A stretch of DNA of 64,000 bases from Terrimonas ginsenosidimutans (GTDB lineage: Bacteria > Bacteroidota > Bacteroidia > Chitinophagales > Chitinophagaceae). Location of the stretch: positions 1-64,000 of the forward strand of contig NZ_JAKLTR010000004.1 in the NCBI RefSeq assembly GCF_022012415.1. Direction: 5' to 3'. This document shows, in pieces, positions 53,283-64,000 of this stretch (position 1 is its first letter; the number at the start of each line of letters is the position of its first letter). The translations under genes and the position numbers were made by a program. The notes under the pieces were generated by a model. It saw only the letters and a list, made by a program, of their open reading frames with translations, did no database searches and was not told where the DNA came from.

Positions 53283-56200
53283 ATGAGAAAAATCTACCTA
53301 CGATTGCTGGGCAGCTGCCTCGCTATGTTAATGGCATTCCAGGGCCATTCACAGGTTGTGATCAGCCAGGTGTATGGAGGCGGAGGCAATGGCGGCTCCG
53401 TTTATCAGAATGATTTCATCGAGTTATTTAATCCCACCAATGCCACGATCAGCCTCGCCGGCTGGTCTGTACAGTATGCCAGTGCGGCCGGTACCGCATG
53501 GGCGGTAACACCCCTGTCAGGATCAATTGCTCCCGGTCGTTATTACCTTGTACAGCAAGCGTCCGGTGCAGGTGGCACAACAGGCCTGCCCACACCGGAT
53601 GCAACGGGTTCGATCGCTATGTCTGCCACTGCCGGCAAAGTCGCCGTAGTCAGCAGTACGACCCCCATAAGCGGCGCATGTCCTGCAGGGCTGATCGATC
53701 TTGTCGGCTACGGAACCGCCAACTGTTTTGAAGGTTCCGGAGCAACACCCGCTCCTTCAAATACAAATGCGGTACAGCGTATCAGTAATGGTTGTACCGA
53801 CAATAACAATAACGCCACTGATTTTGTAACCGGCGTTCCGAACCCGCGCAACACCAGTTCGCCTGCTAACTCTTGCGTTGGCTGCACCGCACCCACCAAT
53901 CAGCCTACGGCTCTTTCTTTTACACCTGCTGTTACGTCAGTAAGCGGGTCATTCACTGCAGCCGCAGCGGGAACAATTGCCGCAGATAACTATCTCATTG
54001 TGTTCAGCACGTCTTCAACATTATCGCAGCAGCCCATATCCGGCAATGCATACAATACAGGAGATAATATCGGCAATGGCACGGTAGCCGCATTCCCGGA
54101 TGCAACTTCCTTTACTATCAACGGACTTACTGCATCGACAACCTATTATGTGTTCATCTTCGCCCTCAGCAGCACAGGTAATTGTTATAACACGAACTCT
54201 CCGCTGACAGGAAGTTTTACTACAGAAGCCAACCCGGCTCCTACAGCATCCGTTTCCGCAGGAATAAATGCAGCTGAACCTTCTACAAATGGAAGTTTTG
54301 TTGTAACGCTTTCAAGTCCCGCTCCCGCAGGTGGGGTAAGCATTGGATATACACTTGCGGGCAATGCGGTTTCCGGCACAGACTATACCGATCCGCAGAA
54401 TGGCACACTGTTGATCGCACAAGGCGAAACAACAGGAACGATCCAGATCAATGTAGTGGATGATGCGATCCCGGAACCTTCCAAAACAATTTCTGTTACG
54501 CTGAACACCGCCAGCAATGGTTATATCATCGGAACGCCAACAGCAAGCATTACACTTACTGACAATGATATCGCCGCGGCTATTCCACTGACCACCTCAT
54601 ATTCCCAGGATTTTAACTCGCTGGCAACTACCGGCACGGCAATCACATGGGCAGATAATACAACCATTCCGGGATGGTATGCCAGCCGTGTTGTTTATAA
54701 CACCGGAAACGGAAGCAGCAACGCCGGAGCCTTGTATAGTTTTGGAACGACAGGTTCCACTGACCGTGCGATCGGAAGTATTGGCTCGGGAAGTACCGGA
54801 ACCGTTCTTTATGGGGCAAGATTCGTCAATAATACCGGTGGCGCCATCACTTCATTGAAGATCGCATATAAAGGAGAACAATGGAGAAACGGAGGAGTGG
54901 CAGCTGTTCAGACAGTCAACTTTGCCTATCAGACCGGAACGGCCATTTCCTCTTTAACAGAGGGAAGCTGGACTGGCGTAACAGACCTGAACTTCAATAG
55001 TCCTGTTACAGGAACCACTGCTGCCGCGCTGGACGGGAATCTTCCGGCGAATTCCGGCGTAGTTATATATACTATTCACGGATTGAACATTCCGGCAGGC
55101 AATGAGCTCTTTGTCCGTTGGGAAGATATCGATCATAGCGGAGCAGATCATGGTCTCGCAGTAGACAGTTTCAGCATAGAAGCCAATCCGCAGGATCTTG
55201 TGGCCCCTGTGATCACCGGCAGATTCCCGGCGGTAAGCGCAACGGAAGTTTCCACTAATACAGCATTATCGGTCGTGTTCGATGAACCCGTCCAGAAAGC
55301 GACAGGCAACATCGTTATCCGCAAAGTGTCCGATAATAGTGTTTTCCAGACGATCAGTATCACGGATAATACCGTTATCGTTTCAGGCAACGCTTTATCA
55401 ATATCATTATCTGCCCTCTCGCCGAACACTGCTTATTCTGTTGAGATCAACTCCGGCGCGGTAAAAGATCTTGCAGGCAATGATTTTGCAGGTGTAGCAC
55501 CCGCAGACTGGACATTCACAACGGGTATTACGTTCTTCACGGCAAACTTCAATAGCTGCACAACAGCGCTCACAGATGGTTTCACACAGTACAGCAGCAC
55601 AGGCGATATAACATGGGCCTGCACTGCATTCGGCCGTGATCCTAACGCACCGGCCGGCACAGCTGCATTCCCGAATGCCGTGCAGATAAATGGTTTTGCA
55701 GGAGGCACTAACGTGCCGAATACAGACTGGCTAATCTCACCGGCCTTTAATCTTCAGAATACAACCTATCCATTGCTGAGCTTCTGGAGCAGAACAGCTT
55801 TCAACGGACCACCATTGGAATTGAGAGTGTCTACCAACTATACGGGAGGTGATCCCGCATTGGCAACATGGACAACCATTAATGGCAAATTCCCTTCGCA
55901 GACGTCGAATGTGTGGGCATTGTCATCCAATATCAACCTGTCTTCATTCAAAGCGGCCAATGTCCGATTTGCATTTGTTTATACCTCTTCGGAAGACGAT
56001 GGCGCCCGTTGGACGGTGGATGACGTCAGCATTGCTGATTCCCCCGTTCCGCCTCCACCGAGCCTGACCATCAGCACCACTGATCTCCGGTTCAACTATG
56101 TTGCCAATGGAGCTACTGCTGATAAGAACTTCTCCTTCGTTGGGAATGACCTTACTTCCGGCGTTTCATTATCCGTGGCGGGTAACTTCCTCTTGTCAAA

Positions 56201-58190
56201 AGACGGAAATTCGTTCAGCCCTTCACTTGTGTATACGCAGGAAGAAGCTAACAATATCGAAAAAACGGTGCATGTAAGATTTGCGCCAAATCAACAGGGA
56301 CAGAACTTTACCGGCAGCATCAGTTTCAGCATGCAGGATACGACGGCTGCTGTAACACTTGCCGGCACAAGTATCGATCCGCTGACAACACTGGAAGTAG
56401 TGAACTGGAATATCGAATGGTTCGGTAGTCCTCTTGAAGCACCAGCCAATGATGATCTGCAACAACAGAATGTAAAAACGATCCTCGAAAATATCGGTGC
56501 GGATGTTTATGCCTTGACAGAGATCGTCAACGAAGAAAGACTGGCAGGTCTTGTGAGCCAGATGCCGGGTTATACTTATGTGATCAGTAATTACGGATCA
56601 CATACAAACACAAGTGTCAACCCTCCTTCTTCACTGGGCACCGCACAGAAACTTGCATTCATTTACAAAACAGATGTATTGAGCAATGTAACAACGACTC
56701 CGTTGCTTACACAGGGTATCAATGCATCTTCAGATATCAGCAATCCTGCTTATAATTACTGGGCTAGCGGAAGATTCCCATTCATGATGAGTGCGGATGT
56801 TACCCTGAACTGCGTCACCAAAAACGTGAAGTTCATTCTGGTGCACGCAAAAGCCAATACGTCTCCGACGGCCACATCCTATGACAGAAGAAAACGTGGC
56901 GCTGACTCGTTATACTATCTGCTGAACCAGCAATTTCCAAATGATAATGTGATCATACTTGGCGACTTTAATGACGATCTGGATCAATCGATCACTGCCG
57001 GTTTCACGACAACATCATGGAACACGTTTGTTGCAGACCAGGCAAACTTCAGTCCGCTGACGCTGCCATTAAGCCTGGCAGGTAAAAAGTCAACCGTTAG
57101 CTACAATGACATCATCGATCATGTGATCGTATCAAACGAAATGGCCGGCTATTACATGGATTCAACGGCGAGTATCCTGAACGATGTAACAGGTCTTGTA
57201 AGCAACTACGGTTCTACGACCAGTGACCATTATCCAGTATTTACCCGTTACCGCTTTACGAACACCACGGCACCCGTGATCACGACCTGCCCTCACCCAG
57301 CGCCATTCTGTGCAAAGGCGGATGGGAACTATACCATACCAGCCATTGAAGCAGCGGATGATTGCGGTGCGGTGATTGTTTCCTATACGATCACCGGGGC
57401 AACTGAACGCAGCGGCACCGGATCAAATGCCAGCGGTTCATTCAATGAAGGTGTAAGCTCCATCAACTGGACCGTAAAGGATGCGCAAGGCAATACAAGC
57501 ACCTGCCAGTCGACAGTAACCGTCAATGAAGCTCCCGAAGTGATCATTCCCGATGCCTTTGCATTGCCTTCCGGCACTGATGCAAATACCGTTTATAAAG
57601 GATATGCACCTGCTTCAACCATTACATTAACGGCAGCCACGACCGGTACAGGATATTCCTATAACTGGTCAAACGGAGCAACCGCTTCAAGCATCACGGT
57701 CAGCCCTGCTGCGAATACGACCTATACAGTTACGGTAACTGATGCAAATGGCTGCCAGGCGACAGCTGCCAAACCGATCACCTTCAAAGATGTTCGTGGG
57801 GGTAAAAAGCTGGACAAAGTGATCATCTGTCACAAACCAGGAAATATTAACAGCACACTGGAAGTTGATCAGAATGCGGTTTCTGCGCATTTGGCTCACG
57901 GGGATAAGTTAGGAGGCTGCGGACCGGTTCAACAATATCCGCCGCTTAATGTTGCTGCAAGTCCTAATCCAACGGTGAGTACATTCCTGATCACGATCAA
58001 AGGAGGCAACCCGATGGAAACTGTCAACATGAAAGTGTACAATGTCCTCGGGCGTCTGGTAGAACAGAAACAGAATCTGCAAACCGGGCAATCATTCAGG
58101 ATCGGGCAGGATTATAAACTCGGACTTTACCTGGTCGAGTTCAGCCAGGGTAGAGACAAGGAGATCCTGTTGCTATTGAAATTAAGATAA
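53283..58190 (+). CDS. Secreted multidomain endonuclease/exonuclease/phosphatase-family protein with T9SS type A sorting domain
   Basis: 1635 residues. Signal peptide (1-23, ending GHSQ). Domains in order: lamin-tail-like (~25-190), Ig/FnIII-like, Calx-beta-like (~320-430), two lectin-like or choice-of-anchor beta domains (~440-640 and ~755-910), an Ig-like domain between them, and the nuclease (~1035-1330) with NWNIEW (1041-1046), GDFND (1227-1231) and SDHYPV (1314-1319). Then HYR/PKD-like domains and a C-terminal sorting domain (ASPNPTVSTF... VYNVLGRLV...GLYLVEFS). Probably a cell-surface or released DNase/phosphatase; the catalytic set looks complete. Exported via the T9SS. Confidence 0.88.
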   Translation: MRKIYLRLLGSCLAMLMAFQGHSQVVISQVYGGGGNGGSVYQNDFIELFNPTNATISLAGWSVQYASAAGTAWAVTPLSGSIAPGRYYLVQQASGAGGTTGLPTPDATGSIAMSATAGKVAVVSSTTPISGACPAGLIDLVGYGTANCFEGSGATPAPSNTNAVQRISNGCTDNNNNATDFVTGVPNPRNTSSPANSCVGCTAPTNQPTALSFTPAVTSVSGSFTAAAAGTIAADNYLIVFSTSSTLSQQPISGNAYNTGDNIGNGTVAAFPDATSFTINGLTASTTYYVFIFALSSTGNCYNTNSPLTGSFTTEANPAPTASVSAGINAAEPSTNGSFVVTLSSPAPAGGVSIGYTLAGNAVSGTDYTDPQNGTLLIAQGETTGTIQINVVDDAIPEPSKTISVTLNTASNGYIIGTPTASITLTDNDIAAAIPLTTSYSQDFNSLATTGTAITWADNTTIPGWYASRVVYNTGNGSSNAGALYSFGTTGSTDRAIGSIGSGSTGTVLYGARFVNNTGGAITSLKIAYKGEQWRNGGVAAVQTVNFAYQTGTAISSLTEGSWTGVTDLNFNSPVTGTTAAALDGNLPANSGVVIYTIHGLNIPAGNELFVRWEDIDHSGADHGLAVDSFSIEANPQDLVAPVITGRFPAVSATEVSTNTALSVVFDEPVQKATGNIVIRKVSDNSVFQTISITDNTVIVSGNALSISLSALSPNTAYSVEINSGAVKDLAGNDFAGVAPADWTFTTGITFFTANFNSCTTALTDGFTQYSSTGDITWACTAFGRDPNAPAGTAAFPNAVQINGFAGGTNVPNTDWLISPAFNLQNTTYPLLSFWSRTAFNGPPLELRVSTNYTGGDPALATWTTINGKFPSQTSNVWALSSNINLSSFKAANVRFAFVYTSSEDDGARWTVDDVSIADSPVPPPPSLTISTTDLRFNYVANGATADKNFSFVGNDLTSGVSLSVAGNFLLSKDGNSFSPSLVYTQEEANNIEKTVHVRFAPNQQGQNFTGSISFSMQDTTAAVTLAGTSIDPLTTLEVVNWNIEWFGSPLEAPANDDLQQQNVKTILENIGADVYALTEIVNEERLAGLVSQMPGYTYVISNYGSHTNTSVNPPSSLGTAQKLAFIYKTDVLSNVTTTPLLTQGINASSDISNPAYNYWASGRFPFMMSADVTLNCVTKNVKFILVHAKANTSPTATSYDRRKRGADSLYYLLNQQFPNDNVIILGDFNDDLDQSITAGFTTTSWNTFVADQANFSPLTLPLSLAGKKSTVSYNDIIDHVIVSNEMAGYYMDSTASILNDVTGLVSNYGSTTSDHYPVFTRYRFTNTTAPVITTCPHPAPFCAKADGNYTIPAIEAADDCGAVIVSYTITGATERSGTGSNASGSFNEGVSSINWTVKDAQGNTSTCQSTVTVNEAPEVIIPDAFALPSGTDANTVYKGYAPASTITLTAATTGTGYSYNWSNGATASSITVSPAANTTYTVTVTDANGCQATAAKPITFKDVRGGKKLDKVIICHKPGNINSTLEVDQNAVSAHLAHGDKLGGCGPVQQYPPLNVAASPNPTVSTFLITIKGGNPMETVNMKVYNVLGRLVEQKQNLQTGQSFRIGQDYKLGLYLVEFSQGRDKEILLLLKLR

Positions 58191-58211
58191 CTAATTTAAT
58201 ATCAAAACCTT

Positions 58212-58246
58212 AAACCTCATCCGCTGATCCCCGGCGGATGAGGTTT
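58212..58246 (+). terminator. Terminator of the nuclease gene
   Basis: Perfect 13-bp stem (58212-58224 with 58234-58246), 9-nt loop, then a T-run. It starts 21 nt after the stop. Confidence 0.88.
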
Positions 58247-58293
58247 TTTTATTGGGCTCAACGTTACTGAGCGTTTTTTTACTTTTTAATTTT

Positions 58294-58301
58294 TACTTTT
58301 G
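58294..58301 (+). promoter_or_regulatory. Candidate upstream promoter of rpsF
   Basis: TACTTTTG fully matches TAnnTTTG. No clear -33 element. Confidence 0.35.
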
Positions 58302-58320
58302 ACTTCCTTCCGGCCCGGAC

Positions 58321-58351
58321 TTGGCCCCTACCAGATTTTTCCCTACTTTTG
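58321..58351 (+). promoter_or_regulatory. Main promoter of the rpsF operon
   Basis: TTG (58321-58323), 20-nt spacer, TACTTTTG (58344-58351). Predicts a leader of about 110 nt before the rpsF ATG. Confidence 0.65.
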
Positions 58352-58468
58352 CAGCCCCAAATCTGTATTCGCAGATTTCCCGTTTGCCGGTAGCAAAAGG
58401 GATCCAATGGTTAAATCGAATTTTTAACAGATCCCGGATCGATGTCCGGGATGACAAAAAGAGGTAAA
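58352..58468 (+). promoter_or_regulatory. Structured rpsF leader
   Basis: Three hairpins can be drawn. AAATCTG/CAGATTT has a 6-nt loop. CCCGTTTGC/GCAAAAGGG has one mismatch and loop CGGTA. TCCCGGA/TCCGGGA with loop TCGATG ends just before the ribosome-binding-like AGAGGTAAA. Ribosomal-protein autoregulation by an S6:S18-type RNA is known upstream of rpsF in many bacteria; whether this is that motif is inference. Confidence 0.4.
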
Positions 58469-58825
58469 ATGAACAATTACGAATTGATGGTGATTTTTAC
58501 CCCGGTTTTAAGCGATGACGAGTTCAAGGCAGCACAGAAAAAGTATACTGCCCTGGTTACCGAAAACGGTGGCTCTGTTGTAGCAGAAAACCCCTGGGGT
58601 TTGAAATCACTTGCCTACCCGATCCAGAAAAAAACAACTGGTTTGTATTGGGTACTTGAGTACAGCGCTCCTGCTGAATTCAACGAGAAGTTGAAAATCC
58701 AAATGCTGCGCGACGAAAGCGTTCTGCGTCAGCTTTGCACTAAACTCGATAAATACGCCGTCGAGTACAATGCTAAGAAAAGAAGTGGTGTTAAAACTGG
58801 AACTGAAAAAGCAGTGGAGGCTTAA
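58469..58825 (+). CDS. rpsF: 30S ribosomal protein S6
   Basis: 118 residues. [23 protein letters not shown] at the start, and [27 protein letters not shown] in the middle, are typical S6. The ATG at 58469 (MNNYELMV) follows AGAGG; an upstream in-frame ATG would add residues encoded by the leader hairpin. First gene of rpsF-rpsR-rplI; S6 pairs with S18 in the small subunit platform. Confidence 0.96.
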
Positions 58826-58830
58826 TCATC

Positions 58831-59094
58831 ATGGCAAAGAACGAAATTAAATATCTGACCGCTATTAAGACTGACAAACGTGTTAAGAAGTTTTGTCGTT
58901 TTAAAAAATACGGTATCCGTTACATCGATTACAAAGATGTAGAGTTCCTCAAAAAATTTCTGAATGAGCAGGGTAAATTACTCCCTCGCCGTTTGAGTGG
59001 AAACAGCCTGAAGTATCAGCGCAAAGTTTCTGACGCGGTTAAAAAAGCTCGTCAGATGGCATTGTTACCGTACGTAACAGATCTTTTAAAATAG
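58831..59094 (+). CDS. rpsR: 30S ribosomal protein S18
   Basis: 87 residues, normal length. [37 protein letters not shown] and the basic C-terminal half match S18. Begins 5 nt after rpsF. Confidence 0.96.
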
Positions 59095-59201
59095 GCTAAA
59101 TATCTCTAATCCCGGATCAGGTCCGGACGAGCCCTGGCTTGTCTCACTGGTTCAGGTGAAAGTGAAGCCTTTTAATTCACTGAGATAAAAAACAAAAAGA
59201 A

Positions 59202-59648
59202 ATGGAAATCATCTTAATTCAGGATGTTGACAACCTGGGCGCTGCTAACGAAGTAGTAAGTGTGAAAAGCGGTTATGCTCGTAACTTTTTACTTCCCCGT
59301 AAGCTTGCTGTGGAAAACAATCCAAGCAATGCAAAGCAACTTCAGGAAAGACTGAAGCAAGTGCGCAAGAAAGAAGAGAAAATGCTGGCTGAAATCAACA
59401 GCGTTATCGCTAAACTGAAAGAAGCTCCGTTGAAACTCGGTGCTAAAACAGGTACAAGCGGTAAGATCTTCGGTAGCGTTACGTCTCTTCAGATCAGCCG
59501 TGCGATCCGCGAACAACGTGGTTACGAGATCGACCGCCGCAAGATCAGCATCGCTGATGAAGTGAAAGAATTGGGTAGCTACAAAGCAAATATCGACTTC
59601 GGAAGTGGTCACTCTACCGAGGTTGAATTTGAAGTAGTTGCTGAGTAA
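59202..59648 (+). CDS. rplI: 50S ribosomal protein L9
   Basis: 148 residues. N-terminal domain MEIILIQDVDNLGAANEVVSVKSGYARNFLLP is the L9 signature; a long central helix and a C-terminal domain ending STEVEFEVVAE follow. 107 nt after rpsR, a gap with some potential structure but no gene. Ends at the terminator 59668-59695. Confidence 0.96.
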   Translation: MEIILIQDVDNLGAANEVVSVKSGYARNFLLPRKLAVENNPSNAKQLQERLKQVRKKEEKMLAEINSVIAKLKEAPLKLGAKTGTSGKIFGSVTSLQISRAIREQRGYEIDRRKISIADEVKELGSYKANIDFGSGHSTEVEFEVVAE

Positions 59649-59667
59649 TTTCTTCGAAAATACCCCA

Positions 59668-59695
59668 AAAAGCTCCTCCCAAAAGAGGGGCTTTT
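59668..59695 (+). terminator. Terminator of the rpsF-rpsR-rplI operon
   Basis: 11-bp stem with one G-T pair, 6-nt loop, ending in TTTTTTG. 20 nt after the rplI stop. Confidence 0.85.
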
Positions 59696-59916
59696 TTGTT
59701 TCCCGGGCTAAAAATCAGCTTTTTAACCCCAAAACCCGCTACCCGCAAGGACTACAGCCAAATATTTTCCTATATGTCAAAAAAAAATCTCTACATTCGT
59801 AGTGATTTGGTGTTCTTTACAGTTTCACAAGTCCTGAACGTTTCGAAAAAAACAGCAAATGTTCATTGGTTACTGTCAGCTGTTGACACTTTTAGTTTTT
59901 TTAAAAATTTCTCAAA

Positions 59917-60324
59917 ATGAACATTTACGTTGGAAACCTCAGTTGGAACCTGAAAGACCAGGATCTGTTGAACCTTTTCGCTTCACATGGTGAAGTTGGT
60001 ACTGCCAAAATCGTTCTCGACAAATTTACTAACCGTAGCAAAGGTTTTGGATTTGTTGAAATGCCAAACGATGACCAGGCTCAAGCTGCTATCAATGCCC
60101 TCAACGGCACTGAAGTAGACGGCCGCAACATCGTTGTTAACGAAAGTCGTCCTAAGCCTGAAGGCGGTGGTAGCGGCGGCGGCGGCGGCTTCAAGAAAAG
60201 AAGCTTTGGCGGCGGCGGCGGCGGTGGCGGCTTCAAAAAAGGCGGCTCCGGTGGCGGCGGCGGTTATAACAAAGGCGGCGGCGGTGGATATCGCGACCGC
60301 GGTGGATACGGCAACGATTATTAA
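59917..60324 (+). CDS. RRM-domain glycine-rich RNA-binding protein
   Basis: 135 residues. One RRM: RNP2 IYVGNL (3-8) and RNP1 KGFGFVEM (43-50). Then a Gly-rich tail (about 84-135) with GGGG runs broken by FKK, YNK and YRDR. Similar to cyanobacterial and Bacteroidota cold-inducible Rbp proteins; expected to bind single-stranded RNA. Long, AU-rich 5' region upstream (59775-59916). Own terminator downstream, so monocistronic. Confidence 0.92.
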   Translation: MNIYVGNLSWNLKDQDLLNLFASHGEVGTAKIVLDKFTNRSKGFGFVEMPNDDQAQAAINALNGTEVDGRNIVVNESRPKPEGGGSGGGGGFKKRSFGGGGGGGGFKKGGSGGGGGYNKGGGGGYRDRGGYGNDY

Positions 60325-60347
60325 TCTTACTTTATTCCATACAAGTG

Positions 60348-60373
60348 AAAGTCCTGCAGTAATGCAGGACTTT
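60348..60373 (+). terminator. Terminator of the RRM gene
   Basis: Perfect 11-bp stem AAAGTCCTGCA/TGCAGGACTTT with loop GTAA, followed by TTTATTT. 24 nt after the stop. Confidence 0.9.
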
Positions 60374-61322
60374 TTTATTTATAGCAATACGCATAATTTC
60401 TAACAGATAAACACAACATTCAGCTGACAAGGCTGAAGCCCGGATATAAAAATTGCCTTTATTGTTACCCGTTTATTTACTGCCAAGGCAGGAAGCGGAA
60501 CCTGGAAGAGATCAGTCATAATAAGATTTTATCCTGCTCAACTTTTCTCTATTATTTCTTGTAAGATGAGACCATCACTCAGGTTGAATAATGCAATCGG
60601 CCAGGGAATGAGAAGATCATTACAGCAGAGGTACCATTACAATGTCTATGAGCCCTTTCAGCAACCAAACATTAATAACTATCCGCATTGCTATTTTTTA
60701 TAAGAAGATAAAATACTCAAGCGATCAAATTAAGATCATCCATGGATCGCATATCCATAGTGAGACGTTAACTTACTGCGATGCTATTGTCTTTTGCTTG
60801 CTTCATTCTCTTCACAGTTTTCAGAATGATAGTGCGCTTTTACGCACATAAATCGCATACGTCTTTCAAGTTTCTTGTCATATCATTTAAACAGTCCCTA
60901 ATTGTTTCTCCTTACGGATTAGTGCGGCTTCGGTGTTGATTTATTGCTACATTTTTATGATAAAAACACCAGGCGATCTTCCAACAATTTATCTGAACAA
61001 AATGAGTTTTCCGGTGTGATGTTTTATCATTTACCTGATGTGTTTGTTAACTATAAAATATTATCGGCTAAGCCACTTATTTGCAGGAAAATACATTGAG
61101 GTTAACACATTTACAGTAGTTATTAAAGCATTTCTAATGCTCTTGCTCTTCGAAACCAACATATAAATACTACCTTTCAAATATCCGCCTTTCGTCCTTT
61201 CGGAAAGGGCCGGCGGGGGCCGATTTCAGGCCCGATGTTTGACAACAAAGGCATGTGTAGAATATGCCACAGGCATACAGCATACGGGCGCCATTATTAA
61301 TCTAAACCAAGAGGAGAAACAC
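60374..61322. other. Intergenic region before the GpgS-HAD gene
   Basis: About 950 nt, AT-rich on average. Near its right end are CCTTTCGGAAAGG (61197-61209) and a GGGCC/GGCCC hairpin (about 61217-61233) in what would be the leader. Open frames here are short and lack support. A gap this long in a dense genome may hide regulatory DNA or an RNA gene. Confidence 0.5.
61171..61178 (+). promoter_or_regulatory. Possible -7 box for the GpgS-HAD gene
   Basis: TACCTTTC matches TAnnTTTG at 7 of 8 positions. It predicts a leader of about 140 nt with a GC-rich hairpin. Confidence 0.35.
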
Positions 61323-62699
61323 ATGCTCACAGTGATTATTCCCGCACTGAATGAAGAAAAAACTATTGCTCAGGTGGTCAGGTTTTGTTTTACAGATAAG
61401 CTCGTTTCAGAAGTAATAGTTGTTGATGACACATCGGAAGATAACACGGTTCATGTAGCGCGCGAAGCAGGCGCAAAAGTGCTGATCAGCGCAACGCGCG
61501 GAAAAGGAATTTCCATGAAAGAAGGAATTGACGCTTCTACCAACGACTATGTCATTTTCCTCGACGCAGACATTGACCCATACCCCGATCATTCAATCAG
61601 CAAACTCGCTACTCCTTTGCTGGAAGAGCGTGCAGATTTTGTAAAAGGCGCTTTTGCGCGCAATGCCGGCCGCGTAACCGAACTTGTAGCAAAGCCTTTA
61701 CTGACTATTTTGTTTCCCGGGCTTGCTCATTTCTCCCAGCCTCTTAGCGGAATGATCGCAGGTAAGAAAAGCTTTTTCCAGAAGATCGAATTTTTCAACG
61801 ACTATGGCGTTGATATCGGTATACTGGTAGATATGTACCTGATGAAAGCCCGTGTGGAAGAAGTAAATATCGGCTACATCGAAAATAAAAGCAAGCCATG
61901 GGAAGCCCTTGGTAAAATGAGCCGCGAAGTATCACGCGCAATACTTAGCAAAGCGCAACGTCAGCACAACAATGAATTGTCCCTGGAAAGCGTAAACTCC
62001 CTTGAAGCCATCCAACGGGAAATGAATAATTCCATAAGAGAGAATCTTTCTACGTATCATAAAATGCTGATCCTTGATATGGATGACACCATATTAACAA
62101 AAAGATTCATCAACGAATGTGCAGACGCATTTGGCTTCAGACAAAAGTTAGACGACCTGAGAGCTAATGAAAAAGATTCGATCATTCTTACAAAAAGGAT
62201 CGGTCTGTTGTTAAAAAACCGGACCATGGATGAATTGCTCCATGTGATCAGCAGTATGCAAATGGCTGACAACATCAAGGAGATGGTTTTGTATTATAAA
62301 CAACGTGGATACCTGGTTGGGATCATCAGCCACAGCTACACATTGATCACTAATTATGTGAAACAACAGATCGGCGCTGATTTCTCTATGGCACACCAGT
62401 TGGAGTTCTTTGAAGGAAAAGCTACAGGAGAAGTGAGCCTTCCCTCTTATTTCTTTGGTTCACCGGAAAGCATTTGCGGGCATTCATTCTGCAAAACGAA
62501 CGTAATGCAGCATGTTTGCGAGAAGTATAATGTAAAGATGAAAAACTGCATCGCAGTGGGTGACAGTAAAGATGATCGGTGTATTATTACTTATGCAGGA
62601 AAAGGCGTGGCCTTCTGCACAACCGATGAGATGCTGGAAAAGATCGCAGATAAGAATATCCGGGAAAGAGATTTCCAGCCTTTGCTGGAAATGGCCTGA
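61323..62699 (+). CDS. GpgS-like glycosyltransferase fused to a HAD phosphatase
   Basis: 458 residues. Residues 1-~215 are a GT-A glycosyltransferase: VIIPALNEEKTIAQVV, metal-binding D81-A-D83, ADFVKGAFARNAGRVTELVAKPLL (104-127), QPLSGMIAGKK (139-149), YGVDIGILVD (161-170) and LGKMSREVSRAIL. This matches glucosyl-3-phosphoglycerate synthase (GpgS) as I know it. From ~245 on it is a HAD phosphatase: nucleophile D252 and D254 in ILDMDDTIL, S336 in ISHS, K391, and GDSKDD (413-418), SerB-like. Together this suggests synthesis and dephosphorylation of a glycosyl-3-phosphoglycerate to a glycosylglycerate solute in one protein. The ATG at 61323 follows GAGGAG. Next to a universal stress protein gene. 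Confidence 0.85.
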   Translation: MLTVIIPALNEEKTIAQVVRFCFTDKLVSEVIVVDDTSEDNTVHVAREAGAKVLISATRGKGISMKEGIDASTNDYVIFLDADIDPYPDHSISKLATPLLEERADFVKGAFARNAGRVTELVAKPLLTILFPGLAHFSQPLSGMIAGKKSFFQKIEFFNDYGVDIGILVDMYLMKARVEEVNIGYIENKSKPWEALGKMSREVSRAILSKAQRQHNNELSLESVNSLEAIQREMNNSIRENLSTYHKMLILDMDDTILTKRFINECADAFGFRQKLDDLRANEKDSIILTKRIGLLLKNRTMDELLHVISSMQMADNIKEMVLYYKQRGYLVGIISHSYTLITNYVKQQIGADFSMAHQLEFFEGKATGEVSLPSYFFGSPESICGHSFCKTNVMQHVCEKYNVKMKNCIAVGDSKDDRCIITYAGKGVAFCTTDEMLEKIADKNIRERDFQPLLEMA

Positions 62700-62747
62700 T
62701 AAAGCAATTTTGAAACCGTCTTGTATCACAACTAAAAACTAGCGCCT

Positions 62748-63581
62748 ATGCCAAACAAATTGTATAACATCCTTGTACCGGTTGATTTCACCGCAAGAAA
62801 TAAGTGGGCGATTGCAAAAGCACTGGAACTGTCGAACACATTCAACTGTAACGTCCATCTCGTTTACACAAACGGTAGTACAAAAAATTCAACCAGCGCA
62901 ACAAGAAGCCAGGAAACGATCCTTCGCAAACTGGAACAACTTAAATCTCTTTACAGCCAGCAGATCTGTGGAGAAGGCAAGCTGGAGATCAGCTTACTGA
63001 ACGGCAACCGGCAGAAAGAGCTTTCAAATTATATTGAACAGTATGAAATGGATATTGTGGTAGTCGGACTGTCTAAGTTCAACCTGCTCCACCGCATCGC
63101 TTCATCGATCTCTATCAGCAGAATGGCAAAAAAAATGCAGATCCCGGTTTTAGGCGTTCGCTCAAGCGGCCTTGTATGCCACTATAAAAAGATCGTTCTG
63201 CCTGTATCCGGGGAATTGCCGATGCGACAGATCAGGCTTGCAGCATTGCTGGGAAGAGCCTTCAAATCGACGGTATATTTCGTTTCCCTGCGAAAGCACG
63301 CAGAAGAACAGAAAGACAATGTGGTGGATATGGCACTGGAATTTGTGCAGAGCATTTCAACAATACCTGTTCAGTGTTTTCTTCTTGAGGGCCAGAACCT
63401 GGCGAAAAGTACGCTGGAGTTTTCCAAAAAGATCAATGCAGATCTGATCGTGGTAAATCCGGTCAAAGACCTTCGTTTGCCCGGCTTGTGGAACAGAATG
63501 ACGAATAAGTTGCTTTCATACGGATCGAAGATCCCGGTGATGACAGTAGCTGCTCCCTCCGGAAAACAACATTCTAAGTAA
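62748..63581 (+). CDS. Tandem universal stress protein
   Basis: 277 residues made of two UspA-type domains: one starting NILVPVDFTARNKWAIAKALEL (residues ~7-140) with VVVGLSKFNLLHRIASS, and one starting KIVLPVSGELPMRQIRLAALLGRAF (~147-275) ending IPVMTVAAP. The ATP-binding G-2x-G-9x-G(S/T) motif is not clearly preserved in either half, so it may be of the non-nucleotide type. 48 nt after the GpgS-HAD gene, likely the same stress-related transcript. Confidence 0.88.
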   Translation: MPNKLYNILVPVDFTARNKWAIAKALELSNTFNCNVHLVYTNGSTKNSTSATRSQETILRKLEQLKSLYSQQICGEGKLEISLLNGNRQKELSNYIEQYEMDIVVVGLSKFNLLHRIASSISISRMAKKMQIPVLGVRSSGLVCHYKKIVLPVSGELPMRQIRLAALLGRAFKSTVYFVSLRKHAEEQKDNVVDMALEFVQSISTIPVQCFLLEGQNLAKSTLEFSKKINADLIVVNPVKDLRLPGLWNRMTNKLLSYGSKIPVMTVAAPSGKQHSK

Positions 63582-63586
63582 TTAAT

Positions 63587-63694
63587 GGCGTAGAAGTATC
63601 GCAAAGGACGCTAAGTAAACGCAAAGAGCGCAAAGAATAAAACCTTTCCGCTCTTTGCGTTTACTTAGCGTCCTTTGTGATACAGAACTACGCC
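63587..63694. repeat. GCAAAG-type long hairpin between convergent genes
   Basis: Left arm 63587-63630 and right arm 63649-63694 form a nearly perfect stem. The inner 30 bp (63601-63630 with 63649-63678) pairs fully with one G-T. The outer part, GGCGTAG with CTACGCC, carries a small mismatch. Loop of 18 nt. The left arm contains GCAAAG three times. A degenerate relative is at 7786-7857. Confidence 0.85.
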
Positions 63695-63701
63695 AGCCGG
63701 T

Positions 63702-64000
63702 CTATTGAACGATCCTGATCACACCAGCACCATTGTAAGAATGGTACTCCCCGTTATACATCGCGTCTGCACTCACCGGCCCCATTTTGTACTGACCAGG
63801 CGAAACCGCTCTTACCGCATAATAATATGTCTGTTTATTATTATAGGCGTCCACGAACAAATGCAACCTATCATCTCTCACATCGATCGACGTTGGCGTT
63901 GACGCATCCTTGATCCAGTCCATTCCCGGAATCTCTTTTGTTCTTGGATTCTCGATCTCAAACCCTGCAGGCAGCAGATCTGTGATCACGATATTCTCCA
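63702..64000 (-). CDS. Alpha-2-macroglobulin family protein, C-terminal end (partial)
   Basis: The last ~99 codons of a gene that enters from beyond the right edge. ENIVITDLLPAGFEIENPR, YYYAVRAVSPGQYKMGPVSADAMYNGEYHSYNG and the final GVIRIVQ match the C-terminal region of bacterial alpha-2-macroglobulins (YfaS type), envelope proteins thought to trap proteases. The GTG at 63987-63989 is internal, not a start. Confidence 0.85.
   Translation of the reverse strand, partial: ENIVITDLLPAGFEIENPRTKEIPGMDWIKDASTPTSIDVRDDRLHLFVDAYNNKQTYYYAVRAVSPGQYKMGPVSADAMYNGEYHSYNGAGVIRIVQ

Follow-up and report, generated by a model that had tools for sequence, protein, structure and literature searches.

MgsD of Dehalococcoides mccartyi consists of a GT55 synthase and a HAD-IIB phosphatase of the MpgP type and uses GDP-mannose. 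Both the sugar transfer to 3-phosphoglycerate and the dephosphorylation are done by this single protein (PMC8490865), the kind of mannosylglycerate fusion that the original prediction had cited as analogous. A second enzyme of this kind, GgpPS, is a fused glucosylglycerol-phosphate phosphatase/synthase that makes a compatible solute (PMC10873239). The protein described here is encoded in a 64,000-nt stretch of DNA from Terrimonas ginsenosidimutans (the window). Unlike MgsD, it joins a GT81-like glycosyltransferase to a HAD-IB phosphatase, and its C-terminal half has no match to the HAD-IIB MpgP family; in GgpPS, by contrast, the phosphatase is N-terminal, the synthase is GT20-like, and the acceptor is glycerol-3-phosphate. 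The fusion resembles MgsD and GgpPS in principle and is built from different families. Searches of the open-licence literature brought up no fusion of GpgS with a HAD-IB domain, and the combination of a GT81-like and a HAD-IB domain in one protein appears to be undescribed. In the T. ginsenosidimutans genome, a frame of 771 aa (G000:C63:117218-119107, minus strand) contains both a GT20 domain and a HAD-IIB-like part and is likely a fused trehalose-phosphate synthase/phosphatase.

The fusion gene is a single intact open reading frame at 61323..62699 on the plus strand, as are all features of the protein given below, with an ATG start, a TGA stop, and a product of 458 aa (P0001). An in-frame TTG at 61239 is a possible longer start, and conservation in the family begins only at the ATG at 61323. 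Residues 1-214 (61323..61964) form the GT81-like glycosyltransferase domain (NF010496, E 7.9e-54; Foldseek and VIA match to GpgS), residues 215-245 (61965..62057) a helical linker of low model confidence (pLDDT 56-73 in blocks 211-250), and residues 246-458 (62058..62696) the SerB-like HAD-IB phosphatase domain (TIGR00338, E 3.1e-28; supported by VIA Z). Pfam assigns a GT2-type domain and a HAD domain. In an NCBIfam profile search, of the kind that the original prediction had proposed, the halves gave GpgS (residues 3-225) and SerB (residues 241-456) as their best matches, both below the curated equivalog cut-offs. The closest solved structures by sequence are mycobacterial GpgS (1e-28) and the phosphoserine phosphatase (PSP) of Methanocaldococcus jannaschii (Mj; 8.5e-17). 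An AlphaFold2 model was built from 38 relatives; because its mean pLDDT is 89.5 and its pTM 0.53, the individual domains as modeled can be relied on, but not how they are placed relative to each other. The sequence motifs first reported for the N-terminal half are all present (DAD at 81-83, GRVTELVAKPLL at 116-127, PLSGMIAGKK at 140-149, and YGVDIGILVD at 161-170), as is the complete HAD set of the C-terminal half (D252/D254/T256, S336, K391, and D414/D418). An Rfam scan of 56000-64000 gave no match above gathering scores and no regulatory RNA upstream of the gene, and the promoter and terminator scan gave counts not in excess of shuffles. The approximately 0.9 kb upstream of the gene (60405-61322) contain no annotated-like ORF; its final 20 nt, which cover the ribosome-binding region, show 80% complementarity with 60903-60922, possibly by chance.

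The transferase half matches the GpgS model NF010496 with 182.8 bits (187.1 bits in the genome search), below the curated cut-off of 262, and scores 85 bits against AglJ and 44 bits against the dolichyl-phosphate hexose transferase model. The structural comparison proposed earlier matched the fold: the modeled domain superimposes on Mycobacterium hassiacum GpgS with a VIA Z of 29.3, an rmsd of 1.6 A, and 38% identity, followed by MpgS of Rubrobacter xylanophilus (Z 28.5, 31% identity) and mannosylglycerate synthase (MgS; Z 21.6). In a FastTree phylogeny of 119 sequences, the fusion proteins form a clade (support 0.971) that branches as sister group (0.939) to GpgS+MpgS (0.998); the transferase half thus lies outside GpgS+MpgS, and it is separate from every other GT2 sequence in the sample. 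Grouping with dolichyl-phosphate or the other GT2 enzymes sampled, the outcome that the original prediction had named as contrary to it, was rejected on the scores and the tree; the domain groups with GpgS and MpgS.

Residues named in the structure paper of Mycobacterium tuberculosis GpgS (PMC2581804) were mapped onto the fusion protein, and conservation was read from 66 aligned family members. P50, A51, L52, E54 (ribose), K114, L209, S210, Y229, and M269 of GpgS correspond to the unchanged P7, A8, L9, E11, K61, L141, S142, Y161, and M199, nearly all of which are invariant among the 66 relatives. The metal/nucleotide motif D81-A82-D83 (61563..61571) equals D134-S135-D136 of GpgS, with both Asp residues in 66/66. 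GRVTEL (61668..61685), also found in R. xylanophilus MpgS, places R117, V118, and T119 at R185, V186, and T187, the last two of which bind the acceptor carboxylate in GpgS (PMC2581804); G116, R117, and V118 are present in 66/66 members and T119 in 65/66. QPLSG (61737..61751) supplies the sugar-pocket residues L141 and S142 at L209/S210 (PMC2581804), and YGVD (61803..61814) supplies Y161 and D164 at Y229/E232. The DxD, Lys, Glu, GRVTE, and PLxG residues, together with the fold, are those of GT81. The domain differs from GpgS in lacking about 40 residues at the N-terminus, in an acceptor loop shorter by about 12 residues, in Asp for E232 (MgS likewise has Asp there, D192), in D36 at nucleobase position S81, and in R261->K191, E212->M144, and Y213->I145. 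The metal-binding His of the beta8-alpha9 loop (H258) is replaced by N188 (61884..61886; Asn in 63/66, His in 3/66), and R. xylanophilus MpgS also has Asn in this column; this stand-alone enzyme differs in its nucleobase segment. The carboxylate motif argues for a glycerate-type acceptor, and a variant substrate would be compatible with the changed loop. Given the sister position, the changes at H258, S81, and E232, and the deleted acceptor loop, donor sugar and acceptor can be proposed only provisionally, with glucose as the likeliest sugar.

The phosphatase half has a C1-cap HAD fold with the DxDx(T), Ser, Lys, and D...D motifs of HAD-IB. It scores 98.9 bits against TIGR00338, short of the curated 144.15, and superimposes on SerB/PSP structures with Z 24-28 (28.0 to Helicobacter pylori SerB, 3m1y; 27.4 to Mj PSP). 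Motif I, DMDDT (62076..62090), contains the nucleophile D252 and the acid/base D254 (both 66/66), motif II is S336 (62328..62330; 65/66), the catalytic K391 is present in 66/66, and motif IV is D414...D418 (62562..62576; 62/66 and 66/66). In Mj PSP, E20 recognizes the amino group of serine (PMC6321591) and R56 binds the carboxylate. In the fusion, the place of E20 is taken by R261 (62103..62105; Arg in 53/66, Ser in 13/66), only 40/66 members retain R56, neither Met43 nor Phe49 is present, and the SGG of SerB has become S-x-S. Because E20 is Arg or Ser and F49 is absent, the substrate is probably not phosphoserine; the swaps would fit a substrate with a sugar in place of the amino group at C2. 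Fold, residue swaps, and the logic of the fusion together suggest that this SerB-type HAD domain hydrolyzes a sugar-phosphoglycerate. MpgP (TIGR01486) gave no match to this half even at E 0.01, and the genome contains no MpgP-type phosphatase, the best match having 26 bits and lying beside a GT20 domain. In the stretch C385-x-H387-x-x-C390-K391 (62475..62495; 65-66/66), the Cys and His residues of an extra loop before the catalytic Lys, together with C420 (62580-62582), two residues after D418, are near-invariant (65/66 each), are absent from SerB, and may form a metal or redox site. Stand-alone relatives of this half were seen in two genomes. One, at L171:5345-6052 (plus strand) in G128, has its catalytic Asp replaced (FGMDNT, GATEKNH) and adjoins universal stress, two-component, and Na+/H+ exchanger/DUF389 genes, as a putative dead phosphatase retained in a stress locus. 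The other, at L172:4994-5743 (minus strand) in G108, has its catalytic residues intact, and the full fusion is also present in that genome.

Of the 296 Chitinophagaceae genomes sampled, about 85 by row count carry the full-length fusion (38-90% identity), some of them in two or three copies. Terrimonas and Pseudobacter are among the close relatives, and Terrimonas ferruginea DSM 30193 has a fusion of 79% identity (L043). The fusion also occurs elsewhere in Bacteroidota (G772, G794, and G718) and among Planctomycetota, one of them a Brocadiaceae bin; it was not found at full length in the plasmid collection searched. Given this distribution and the invariant catalytic residues, the fusion is a real family and its joint architecture is not due to chance. 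Chance adjacency or an assembly artifact was ruled out by the full-length conservation in many independent assemblies. The main catalytic residues of both halves are conserved across the 66 members, so selection acts on the two jointly. A second, divergent full-length copy (approximately 39-41% identity) occurs in G009, G180, G232, G240, G280, and others and possibly serves a different solute or specificity. In G202:C25 and G087:C109, the frame is broken near residue 370-379, as a remnant or an assembly error.

On this evidence, the fusion is probably a bifunctional sugar-glycerate synthase whose product is a compatible solute. The GT81-like domain would transfer a sugar from an NDP-sugar, most likely UDP-glucose, to the 2-OH of 3-phosphoglycerate with retention of configuration, giving a glycosyl-3-phosphoglycerate and NDP. 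The HAD-IB domain would then remove the 3-phosphate via a phospho-aspartate on D252, possibly with channeling between the domains, and the end product would be free glucosylglycerate or another glycosylglycerate, made as a compatible solute under salt, ion, or osmotic stress. One-protein synthesis of a glycosylglycerate had been predicted; the two-domain part of that claim gains support from the tree and the intact HAD residues, and the transferase is sister to, and outside, GpgS+MpgS. The pathway could also run with another sugar, such as GDP-mannose (giving mannosylglycerate) or another hexose, a reading we regard as unlikely. R. xylanophilus MpgS shares the Asn at the H258 column and matches the model nearly as well as GpgS, and the Asp at the place of S81 could shift the base preference, but score and identity favor GpgS (38% versus 31%). 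The Ser210 of PLSG, proposed to disfavor mannose (PMC2581804), is also kept, but it is a weak donor marker because M. avium GpgS itself has PLGG. A different acceptor with the same logic, such as glycerol-3-phosphate, phosphoserine, or 2-phosphoglycerate, with the HAD half dephosphorylating the product to, for example, glycosylglycerol, is distinctly unlikely: the outlying clade, the shortened loop, the altered 256-261 segment, and HAD pocket residues unlike those of PSP would allow it, but the carboxylate-binding pair of GpgS and MgS (V186/T187, here V118/T119), kept in at least 65/66, favors a carboxylate acceptor.

Two further readings are each very improbable. The HAD half might be a genuine phosphoserine phosphatase of serine synthesis, fused by chance to a GpgS-like enzyme, since SerB/PSP is its best fold and profile match and no other SerB match in the genome exceeds 29 bits. 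E20 and F49 are gone, however, and in about two thirds of the 296 Chitinophagaceae genomes both the fusion and a TIGR00338 match at 1e-12 are missing, so that serine synthesis must run otherwise there. TIGR00338 is matched above its cut-off in only 3 of the 296 genomes, and the phosphoserine phosphatase of Chitinophagaceae is therefore of another kind. As most genomes lack both, the fusion is not the general phosphoserine phosphatase of this family, and with E20 lost, this activity was ruled out as its main function. Alternatively, the transferase might act on a lipid carrier or polysaccharide like other GT2 enzymes, with a regulatory or unrelated HAD half. GT2 enzymes are diverse and there is the weaker AglJ match, but there is no transmembrane partner, the tree position is beside GpgS/MpgS, the acceptor motif is conserved, and the catalytic HAD residues are invariant. 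For the sugar-glycerate synthase reading in its fullest form, we see about an even chance: an undescribed one-protein family with a SerB-derived sugar-phosphoglycerate phosphatase and a possible Cys/His metal site, that supplies many Chitinophagaceae and some Planctomycetota with an unrecognized osmolyte. If true, this would be a single-gene route to glucosylglycerate, the third case in which a synthase and a phosphatase for a glycosidic compatible solute became fused independently, and the recruitment of a SerB-type HAD enzyme to a new substrate through a swap of its amino-group-reading residue. A function would be assigned to a family that over a quarter of the sampled Chitinophagaceae (soil, wastewater, and groundwater bacteria) carry and that also occurs in anammox-group planctomycetes, and an osmolyte open to direct detection would be predicted.

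The gene 48 bp downstream of the fusion gene (62748..63581, plus strand) encodes a universal stress protein (PF00582, 5.3e-12), as had been stated. In the closest relatives, the fusion gene lies between ribosomal-protein/RNA-binding genes and this gene; the neighbor is limited to the Terrimonas-like part of the family and a few other members. It is weak evidence for a solute role when taken alone and was demoted as the main support in favor of wider contexts. More distant relatives have other neighbors with a common theme of ion and osmotic stress: Na+/H+ exchangers (L190, L167, L194, and L047), CitMHS/NhaD-like transporters (L191 and L197), a Na+/Ca2+ exchanger (L191), ClC chloride channels (L197, L202, L203, L208, and L049), MscS (L047), DUF389 proteins (L190, L197, and L203), two-component systems (L048, L191, L200, L203, and L208), and again universal stress proteins. 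At a planctomycete locus (L159), a sugar ABC transporter lies 19 bp downstream of the fusion gene, followed by an OtsA-like GT20 (trehalose-phosphate-synthase-like) gene. Across 33 fusion loci and 40 control stretches from the same genomes, ion transporters were found at 9/33 versus 0/40, or 6/33 versus 0/40 without self-probes (p 0.0065), and universal stress proteins at 11/33 versus 0/40; loci within clades are partly related and non-independent, so these values are optimistic. Of the 33 fusion loci, 12 had none of the scanned stress genes. These neighbors fit osmotic or ion stress, and the compatible-solute role first suggested by the universal stress protein gains support from the family neighborhoods. 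A 40-nt inverted repeat (63596-63683; 95% complementary, 8-nt loop) lies in the gap that separates the universal stress protein gene from a convergent minus-strand ORF at 63702.
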